This document shows, piece after piece, positions 53,854-56,547 of a stretch of DNA of 62,492 nt (position 1 is its first letter; every line of letters starts with the position of its first letter). A program made the translations under genes and the position numbers. The notes under the pieces were generated by a model. That model made no database searches. It worked only from the letters and a program-made list of their open reading frames with translations, and had not been told where the DNA came from. Source of the stretch: a bacterium (GTDB taxonomy: Bacteria; Actinomycetota; Acidimicrobiia; Spongiisociales; Spongiisociaceae); contig JAPPHZ010000016.1 in NCBI GenBank assembly GCA_028820935.1, forward strand, positions 1 through 62,492, in the 5' to 3' direction.

Positions 53854-54720
53854 TCAGATGAGGGAGCCCGAGCCGGCGCGATTGCGGAGGACGGTCAGGA
53901 CTTCGCTGTCGATCGAGTCGCCGTGAAAGCGTCCGGACAGGTACTCGTCGATGGCCCACGCTTCCAACGCTGCAACGACCGCGTCGTCGGCAGAGGTCTT
54001 CGGCGGATATCCGATCCGGTCCAGCAACACCGCTATCTCACCCAGCACCTCTCCCTCGAGTGGAATCGCGCCGGGCCCATCACTCTGGACCAGGTGAACC
54101 GCTCGGATATCGGAAAGGCGTATCAACTCTAGGACCGGATCGTGGTGGTCATCGACCCTGAGGTTCGTGTACTCGTCGCTGGCGCCTTCTTCGTAGGCGC
54201 CCTCTTCGGTAACGATCAGGATCGCAGAACTCTGGCGCCCTCTCCTGTCGCCACCGGCGCGATCACCGGCCAGCAGCGCCGCAAGCATCCGGCGCTCGAG
54301 TTCCTCCGATTCGTCGGTTGCCAGCCAAGCCCTTTCCATCGCGGCGATCACACCCGGACCGGAAAGGAAGTTCCCTTGAATGGCGTAGCCATCACCCACT
54401 GCATGGCCGGCCCAACCGTTGCAGTCCTCTCCGGTATGGCTGCTGGCGCCCCCCATCGCGTCCACAACCCCCAGCTGCCGGTACTGTTGCTGGTCGTCGT
54501 CTTTCACAAGATCCCTCACGACTTCCTCTGCTGAGGCCCCGGAACTAAGAAGGGCGAGTCCGCGTTCCCGGTACGTGAGATTACATTTTGCCTGGGTAGC
54601 GATCGCACCTACGTTCACTTTGGCGGCAGGTACGGCTCGTCCGACGGCAAGACATCTCGACGCCACCGCAGACCCCCACCACGCACCATCTGCGCTGCGA
54701 GCAACTATGGAAAACGTCAC
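53854..54720 (-). CDS. DUF1028-family protein
   Basis: This 288-residue protein matches DUF1028. TFSIVARSADGAWWGSAVASRCLAVGRAVP at the N-terminus, GAIATQA, and a middle segment HTGEDCNGWAGHAVGDGYAIQGNFL are all diagnostic. The family has an Ntn-hydrolase-like character and is often found with amidohydrolases and peptide transporters, as here; its reaction is not established. I chose GTG 54720 because homologues begin at TFSIVAR; the 20 codons upstream are unconserved. It ends 28 bp before the SDR gene. Confidence 0.82.
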   Translation of the reverse strand: MTFSIVARSADGAWWGSAVASRCLAVGRAVPAAKVNVGAIATQAKCNLTYRERGLALLSSGASAEEVVRDLVKDDDQQQYRQLGVVDAMGGASSHTGEDCNGWAGHAVGDGYAIQGNFLSGPGVIAAMERAWLATDESEELERRMLAALLAGDRAGGDRRGRQSSAILIVTEEGAYEEGASDEYTNLRVDDHHDPVLELIRLSDIRAVHLVQSDGPGAIPLEGEVLGEIAVLLDRIGYPPKTSADDAVVAALEAWAIDEYLSGRFHGDSIDSEVLTVLRNRAGSGSLI

Positions 54721-54790
54721 CGCTTCGACGCTAGCACGGCTGGACGTTGCCAGCTTTGCCCAGACGAGATACTTGCTCACGTGTCACGGC

Positions 54791-54894
54791 TAGGAGGGTG
54801 CTGAAAAAGACGGGGATTGGTTGGCACGCGGTGTTTTGAACTGGGGTTTTGTTCCGGCAATCGGACCAACTGGACCTTTTTCAGTACCCTCCTA
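54791..54894. mobile_element. MITE-like element with 19-bp terminal inverted repeats
   Basis: TAGGAGGGTGCTGAAAAAG at 54791-54809 is repeated inverted at 54876-54894 (one mismatch in 19). The 104-bp interior has no coding capacity. The ends resemble those of IS families with GGAGGGTACTGAAAAAG-type termini. The right end contributes the TAG stop codon of the DUF885 gene. Confidence 0.7.
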
Positions 54895-56547
54895 CGTTCC
54901 GGGTCTCTGATCTCTGTCTCCCGTTAACTCTTCCGCCAGGAAGGAAAGCGGGACAGAGCCGTACGACAGCAGTCGATCATGGAAACTCCTCAACGAGGTG
55001 CCGGTACCGCACCGTGCTCGCAGATCATGTATGGCGGTCCGACCCATGAGGTAGGACGAAGGGTACGTCGGATTGTTATACCTGATGTATCTGGTGATCT
55101 CGCCTTCAGCCATATGCCGATCAAGAGCGACCTCTTCCTCCAAGAGCCTGGTCGCTTCAGCCAGGCTCATATTCCTCGTATGGAGGCCTGTATCGATGAC
55201 CACGCGAACGGAACGCCAGAGGGCATTACGCAGCTTGAAGATCTTGACCGCCGGGTCGTCGAACAGGCCGGTCTCGTCCAACAGATCCTCCGTGTAGAGG
55301 CCCCAACCCTCGGTAAAGAGTGGAGACACGAAGTACGTACGAATCGGCGACGCCTTCGTCGCCAACTTGTGATGGACTCGCTGGAGATGGTGTCCGGGAT
55401 AAGTCTCGTGGCCTGCGATCGATTCGCAGAACGCATAGCAGTTATCTCGCATGTGCTGGGACCGGCGGTGGGAAGGCGCGTCCGGATCGATGGGCGTGAT
55501 CAGCCATTCGCTGACCAGACCGGGTTCGAAGTTAGGGCTTGGTGACATGACAGCAATCGGCAAGCCGACCCGCAAGTAGTCGGGCAGCCATCGGACGTGA
55601 CACACCTCGTCGTCGGGTATCGAGATCAGATCCTTGTCCACGCAGTGAACACGAGCTCGCTCCATCTCGTTTGCGTAGGCATCGGCAAACCCCTCCGGGC
55701 GGGGATGGCGCTCCTTGACCCGGCTCACCTGTTCGGTCCAGTGAGTGTCCGGGTCCAGGGCTCCGGCGTAGTCCTCCAATCGAGCACGATCCCCCTCCAC
55801 TTGGTCCCTCCCCCACTCGAACAGCTCGGAGTGGTCGAGCGGGACGCCGTGATACGTGCGGAGGAGGAAGTCGAAGTACGCCGTACCTGCCCGGAAGCTC
55901 CCGCCAGCTGTGCCTCGGATCTCACTCATTGATCCGGAGAACGCTGCCACGGCGTCTGCCGCTCTCCGGGCAGCAGCCGAAAGCTGAGACGCTATGCAGC
56001 CTTCCAGCTGACTCGCGAACACCGGGACCGATGTCCCGAAGAACGTCTGGAGGCCGTCGGCCACCCTGATGGTCATATCGACGTACGGCTCGGGAAAGTC
56101 CGATGGCACGATGAGGCGCTGTACCGATGCCAGATACGCAGGGATTGCCTCGAGCCTCGTGAGAAGGGATTCGGCCCGCTCCTGGACGGCCGCGAACGGC
56201 CGCTGCATGAGCACGGAGGCCCCGGTGCCGAGTCGTTCCAGATGCCAGTACGGCGCCCGCTCCCAGAACCGTGTCTCTACCAGTTGGCGTGCCTTCACTT
56301 TGGCATCGACGATGGCGACGGACGCATCTAGTTGGCTGGAGAAGGGCAAGGAGGAAAGGTCGACGCTCTCCAGACGAGCGACGAATCCATGCAGATCTCT
56401 CAGGTAGTCATCAGCGACCTCGGGTCCGAACATGCCGAGTTCCGAGTCCCACGTGTGTACGCCCAACTGCGTGGCCGCCACCGGATCGGCTCGGAGCACC
56501 GTCTGCACATAGTCGGCAATGACCTGATCTAGCGTTTCCGTCAACAA
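54892..56547 (-). CDS. DUF885-family peptidase-like protein
   Basis: The 551-residue protein is a DUF885 member, a family of predicted zinc-dependent peptidases of helical structure. The active-site region HETYPGHHLQ has His380, Glu381 and His386, and EGWGLYTE (413-420) provides the further conserved Glu. Earlier segments such as YHGVPLDHSELFEWG and VCHVRWLPDYLR are typical. It would hydrolyse a peptide or amide in the cytoplasm (no signal peptide). The stop codon (54892-54894) is the outermost TAG of the adjacent MITE-like element, so the original C-terminus may have been slightly different. Confidence 0.85.
   Translation of the reverse strand: MLTETLDQVIADYVQTVLRADPVAATQLGVHTWDSELGMFGPEVADDYLRDLHGFVARLESVDLSSLPFSSQLDASVAIVDAKVKARQLVETRFWERAPYWHLERLGTGASVLMQRPFAAVQERAESLLTRLEAIPAYLASVQRLIVPSDFPEPYVDMTIRVADGLQTFFGTSVPVFASQLEGCIASQLSAAARRAADAVAAFSGSMSEIRGTAGGSFRAGTAYFDFLLRTYHGVPLDHSELFEWGRDQVEGDRARLEDYAGALDPDTHWTEQVSRVKERHPRPEGFADAYANEMERARVHCVDKDLISIPDDEVCHVRWLPDYLRVGLPIAVMSPSPNFEPGLVSEWLITPIDPDAPSHRRSQHMRDNCYAFCESIAGHETYPGHHLQRVHHKLATKASPIRTYFVSPLFTEGWGLYTEDLLDETGLFDDPAVKIFKLRNALWRSVRVVIDTGLHTRNMSLAEATRLLEEEVALDRHMAEGEITRYIRYNNPTYPSSYLMGRTAIHDLRARCGTGTSLRSFHDRLLSYGSVPLSFLAEELTGDRDQRPGT

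Follow-up and report, generated by a model that had tools for sequence, protein, structure and literature searches.

A TA-duplicating MITE restored the stop codon of a DUF885 gene in a genome of the Acidimicrobiia

In a genome of the Spongiisociaceae (Acidimicrobiia; GenBank assembly GCA_028820935.1), the stop codon of a DUF885 gene lies in the end of a short non-coding element, which raises the question whether the insertion gave the protein a new end or fell into a stop codon that was already there. The window, i.e. the whole stretch of 62,492 nucleotides that was analysed (contig JAPPHZ010000016.1), carries the element at 54791-54894. A preliminary description had reported a MITE-like element of 104 bp with 19-bp inverted ends and one mismatch, the terminal TAG of which is the DUF885 stop. 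Coordinates and near-perfect inverted ends were verified, the 104 bp are non-coding as judged against the accepted coding frames, and the minus-strand frame of the gene indeed stops at 54894-54892. When up to 3 mismatches are allowed, the end TAGGAGGGTGCTGAAAAAG matches the window just twice, at 54791-54809 and, inverted and with one mismatch, at 54876-54894; 100 shuffles gave no match. The 19 bp, while correct as a sequence match, are really composed of a 2-bp target duplication, TA, and a 17-bp inverted repeat, GGAGGGTGCTGAAAAAG, and the complete arrangement is TA + GGAGGGTGCTGAAAAAG ... CTTTTTCAGTACCCTCC + TA (Table 1). The neighbouring DUF1028 gene differs in its first codons in the congeners G001 and G003 by a frameshift or a stop, according to our reading of the alignment.

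Table 1. Features of the element and its neighbours in the window, followed by related loci elsewhere
Feature	Position	Strand	Basis or remark
Target duplication TA, left copy	54791..54792		identical flanking dinucleotide in 28/58 copies, not always TA; single TA at the G003 empty site
Left terminal inverted repeat GGAGGGTGCTGAAAAAG, 17 bp	54793..54809	+	conserved among copies
Non-coding interior with imperfect inner inverted repeat (TTGGCACGCG ... ATCGGACCAA)	54810..54875	+	sequence, fold and copy consensus; inner pairs without covariation
Right terminal inverted repeat, GGAGGGTACTGAAAAAG on the minus strand	54876..54892	-	left/right G/A difference recurs in most copies
Target duplication TA, right copy	54893..54894		sequence
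DUF885 stop codon TAG (TA = duplicated target, G = element)	54892..54894	-	same codon TAG at the G003 empty site
DUF885 gene (PF05960), 551 aa	54892..56547	-	PF05960 E 3.9e-78; length unaltered by the insertion
DUF1028 gene (PF06267) with C-terminal PG_binding_2 domain, next gene on the same strand	53854..54780	-	start uncertain: GTG at 54780 or further in
Loci of the 19-bp end outside the clade	L105 1251-1385, L123 724-835, L122 3395-3557, L110, L120, L093, L098, L103		
Examples of the sister MITE in G013	L335 1501-1601; L340 1501-1601		

The element is real and repeated, and it is a MITE (miniature inverted-repeat transposable element): it is short (104 bp including the duplication), non-coding and bounded by terminal inverted repeats of 17 bp, it has a 2-bp TA duplication with natural empty sites at orthologous positions, and it occurs in many dispersed copies. 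The further copies that the preliminary description implied do exist. A DNA search of the own genome (G000; 3.30 Mb, 51 contigs) gave at least 40 element matches of 76-100% identity, the end pattern gave 101 matches when as many as 2 mismatches were tolerated, as opposed to 0 for the reversed control, and a profile of the first 30 copies served to locate 58 in the stretches examined. Immediately behind one of them (G000:C35:143768-143870; about 2500-2625 of L183), next to a tRNA-like sequence near the contig end, there is another element-like end (CTCC-TGGAGGGTGCCGGAGAAGG), which may reflect nesting or insertion in tandem. Of 58 relatives examined along with the own genome, all nine congeners have relatives of the element, as does one of five further genomes from the family, but none of the 44 that belong to the order at large. 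The exact 19-bp end was found in 37 stretches across 84,980 species genomes (genome_contigs), of which 25 are labelled as Acidimicrobiia, 4 are unlabelled MAGs, and 8 belong to other groups, two Acidobacteria MAGs with element-like end pairs being among these 8. Single or paired around short stretches, the 19-bp end is seen in records of Acidobacteria, Chloroflexi/Anaerolineae, Bacillus, Epulopiscium and Stahlbacteria, and this type of end is thus spread across phyla. The end pattern had 0 matches in viral contigs and none in plasmids, and a search of the element against Rfam matched no family.

Identical dinucleotides flank 28 of the 58 copies (TA/TA in 23, GA/GA in 3, TC/TC and CG/CG in one each), and as the duplicated dinucleotide varies between copies, these bases derive from the target. 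The 23 copies with TA on both sides are preceded by C in 12 cases and followed by G in 14, and in the sister family of G013, a genome of another genus of the same family, C precedes TA in 35 of 42 cases and G follows it in 36 of 42. The target is TA in a CTAG-like context. A duplication of 4 bp was considered and rejected, since the empty DUF885 site has GTAG but the far flank, as we read it, CTAG.

Read on the minus strand, the last codons of DUF885 are ...GGA ACG TAG, and here the T and A of the stop (54894, 54893) are the outer dinucleotide, which is the duplicated target, whereas the G (54892) is the first base of the element. Orthologues of 87-95% identity are found in four congeners (G001, G002, G003, G007), and in G001 the element sits at the same position. 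The preliminary description held that the insertion trimmed or re-ended the protein, and it can be said in favour of a newly made stop and a shortened DUF885 that the last base of the stop belongs to the element, and that the proteins of two relatives with empty sites, G007 and the more diverged G002, run on for two and five codons, respectively. Nevertheless, this reading is hardly credible, as the element-free G003 has AGA ACG TAG CCG, with its TAG in the very codon that is the stop here, and as the flanks of the window itself, when joined to a reconstructed empty site, give ACG TAG CCG; an insertion into the TA of ACG-TAG-CCG reproduces the arrangement in the window exactly. The additional codons of G007, the DUF885 of which is 95% identical and reads ACG CAG CCG TGA, are due to a C in place of T in the former stop. 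The element thus restored the stop codon it landed in, and the DUF885 protein was not shortened. That a MITE-like element supplies the stop codon holds true insofar as the end of the element is part of it, but the stop existed before the insertion. The readthrough of CAG to TGA in G007 and the more diverged end in G002 show that the end of the DUF885 gene is not constant.

This is not the only stop codon that carries the element. When the flanks are joined, 18 of the 58 copies have their TA exactly in the TAG or TAA with which a predicted gene already stopped, with the reservation that for one of the 18 (C29:87540) the reconstruction gives TGA, one flank reading CA. Altogether 21 genes end in the end of an element, and 18 of them stop at the same codon in the reconstructed empty site, whereas the other three would be longer without the element, by 7, 10 and 325 codons. 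In these three cases ends or flanks are decayed, or the base on the far side is C, and a later decay of the far flank is a possible explanation. At the locus with the 325 codons (L137 1637-1743; G000:C33:1636-1745), the copy lies between two frames, presumably glmU and prs, that would be fused in frame without it, and the TAG of the element may now be the sole stop of the first gene. Two other copies (G000:C35:70902 and C35:75172; L134, L151) have the ends AGAGGG...CCCTCT and a gene-side stop TGA instead of TAG; the stop may have been kept despite the changed end, or there may be a subfamily that restores TGA.

Orthologues could be compared for 12 of the 18 stop-site loci in the nine congeners, where 11 sites are occupied, 75 are empty, and one is at a contig end. 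Of the empty orthologues, 64 of 75 end at the same codon when counted from the C-terminal alignment. A strict count without gaps gives 51 of 75; at L152 and L170 this difference looks like internal indels, as the C-termini align at the same codon. TAG or TAA is used by 66 of the 75, as compared with 117 of 304 predicted background genes in the own genome. Same-codon ends are missed at DUF885, where one of three empty orthologues has it, at L163, where five of seven lack it (2/7), and at L182, where all four are one codon longer (0/4), and all of these were counted as misses. At L169, G000 and G007 carry the element in the same stop codon as G002 and G005 but in the opposite orientation, which indicates independent insertions, two in the simplest reading. 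Beyond the gene ends at L162 and L170, several congeners without the element (L215, L219, L277) have short tandem repeats, for instance GGTCAGTGGTCAGTGG and CAGTGGCCAGTGGCC, behind some of the same stops.

Position and structure of the element could also suggest a function in the ending of transcripts, and the preliminary description had proposed that the long stem next to the gene end may act as a terminator. The stem is certainly there, the strand of the element folds better than most shuffles (z -2.5, with 2 of 200 shuffles equally good), and many copies lie just downstream of stop codons, but such a folding is expected of any element with long inverted ends, and a scan of 54500-55200 for GC-rich hairpins with a T run directly behind them found 0 sites. 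The nine inner stem pairs show no covariation in 57 copies, their pairing being no better than shuffled (305 of 500 one-side shuffles do as well or better). The outer ends of these 57 copies have 15 double changes as opposed to at most 12 in any of 500 shuffles, and these fit end subfamilies, as would be expected if recognition by a transposase involves both ends in each subfamily. The presence of the element is patchy, as it is absent from most orthologous gene ends and missing in three of the four other congeners with a DUF885 orthologue, and both orientations occur at one site, L169. A domestication of the element as a transcription terminator of DUF885, or as a hairpin at the end of its mRNA, is therefore very improbable.

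A different question is whether, over and above its preference for CTAG or TA, the transposase actively seeks out stop codons or the ends of transcripts. In a background of 352 kb of the own genome, comprising non-coding and stop sites outside gene interiors, stops make up 29 of 133 CTAG sites (22%), 46 of 254 YTAR sites (18%) and 96 of 1082 TA sites (9%), whereas the copies of the own genome, with 5 intragenic ones left out, are at stops in 18 of 53 cases (34%; p 0.028 against CTAG and p 0.004 against YTAR). This excess and the single stop codon struck in both orientations at L169 speak for such a preference, but stops account for 5 of 26 copies in the congeners, 8 of 25 in public contigs, and 5 of 40 in G013 against an expected 14.5%, and the figure for the own genome is inflated, as selection keeps TA at stops and purges other sites. 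Also the gene caller has to be taken into account, which is a simple home-made codon-usage script that misses some starts and thereby adds "non-coding" sites to the background. In the subset with TA on both sides, 12 of 21 copies are at stops (p 0.0005), but this is one of several subsets tried, and it is not relied on because selection preserves TA at stops. An active preference thus appears unlikely: the excess in the own genome is modest and does not clearly recur in the other data sets, and the CTAG target, the loss of intragenic insertions and the neutrality at stops account for most of the stop hits.

The preliminary description had envisaged a parent IS that shares the ends of the element, but no such IS was found in the own genome or its relatives, the assemblies of which are fragmented. 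The IS630-type transposase domain DDE_3 (PF13358) has 0 matches in the own genome, where an IS630 parent was accordingly rejected, and 0 in the nine congeners; its 6 matches in three other genomes of the family are not associated with the ends of the element. These ends are also absent around the transposases at PF01609 and PF13586 loci, and the three PF01609 loci of the own genome were accordingly rejected as parents, while PF05598 has a single match, in G013, and the other two loci of that contig, L324 and L333, are without such ends. The genome G010 contains IS5-like elements of about 830-880 bp (L306, L309, L311) that are flanked by TA and have the ends GGGCGTGTTCACG. They are probably autonomous elements that likewise duplicate TA and whose ends begin with G, but because of their end sequence they were rejected as the parent. 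As for the assignment to an IS family, the TA target duplication is a feature of IS630/Tc1-mariner elements, but no same-ended DDE_3 transposase was found in the genomes searched, and the ends resemble, by eye, those of MITEPsy1 as printed in PMC3189936, but no same-ended IS5-type transposase was found in them either. The element is best regarded as a MITE with IS5-like ends that is not assigned to the IS5 family.

The nearest described element, as far as the passages of PMC3189936 tell, is MITEPsy1 of Pseudomonas syringae, which is about 100 bp long, has no coding region, targets CTAG or YTAA, and has the ends GGAAGGTCTGAAAAAGCC that are very similar to GGAGGGTGCTGAAAAAG. MITEPsy1 has been shown to transpose in vivo, and its presumed parent is ISPsy2 of the IS5 family. 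It differs in its duplication of 4 nt instead of 2 nt (TA), in its 6 copies as opposed to 58, and in having a proposed parent where none was found here, and stop codons as targets are undiscussed in those passages (PMC3189936). Other bacterial MITEs that duplicate TA are RUP of pneumococcus, related to IS630-Spn1, and the Correia elements, which, according to the part of PMC2229807 considered, resemble the element in being about 100-150 bp long, in having inverted ends with TA, and in their high number of repeats. No IS630-type (DDE_3) transposase was found in the own genome and the nine congeners. We take the end sequences of RUP and Correia elements to be unrelated to those of the element. 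A sister MITE exists in G013, with about 270 copies in a 4.9-Mb genome (272 forward and 272 reverse end matches). It shares the end tip GGAGGGTGCTGA and the core length (mostly 101 bp) and likewise duplicates TA, within a sharp CTAG target, but its ends continue with [AG]CAAT and its interior looks unrelated. A search of paper texts had no match for the 15- and 16-letter ends and only three unrelated papers for the 13-letter end, and no description of a MITE that regenerates a stop codon was found in titles, abstract openings and passages of PMC3189936, PMC3119063, PMC6382973 and PMC2229807, which is not a proof of absence.

It is thus very likely that the element as a whole is to be explained as a non-autonomous MITE of about 100 bp that is moved in trans, duplicates TA, restores stops and then decays. 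A transposase acting in trans would recognise GGAGGGTGCTGAAAAAG-type ends and cut at TA, preferably in CTAG, and TA is duplicated on insertion, as the ends, the duplications and the empty sites show. As both ends of the element start with G beside the duplicated TA, TA-G is read when entering from either side, and an insertion into the TA of TAG or TAA therefore rebuilds the stop at the same codon and leaves the product unchanged, as is shown at DUF885 and at most of the 11 further loci. The distribution of the copies suggests that intragenic insertions are purged, whereas intergenic ones and those in stop codons are tolerated, and copies would afterwards decay at the local rate. Between G000 and G001, the identity is 94.0% in the element, 93.9% on the DUF885 side and 91.2% on the other side, and the DUF885 copy, which has diverged to the same degree as its flanks, fits one old insertion that has been inherited or exchanged together with its surroundings. 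On the tree (3,948 aligned bases, deeper nodes with 43-84% support), each of six loci requires 2-3 changes to account for where the element is present, and because several nodes are weak, recombination, repeated insertion and loss are not distinguishable. These changes, the inconstant end of the DUF885 gene, the three genes that would be longer without the element, and the failure to find a transposase with matching ends in the own genome or its relatives speak against the explanation.

For the annotation of genomes this means that a transposon-derived stop codon need not indicate a truncated protein: because TA is duplicated and G supplied, a transposon can lie in a gene's final codon and leave the protein as it was. 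The MITE families, with 58 located copies and about 270 in the sister family, would be useful markers for strain comparisons in a poorly known group. G-first ends beside the duplicated TA, together with the CTAG target, may even make stops harmless landing sites, and it is conceivable, although still rather doubtful, that the lineage has been kept or favoured for being "stop-safe" in this way, with stop codons as a safe harbour across this family of uncultured Acidimicrobiia. If stop codons are indeed a real safe harbour, this would provide a testable rule for TA-targeting elements generally.
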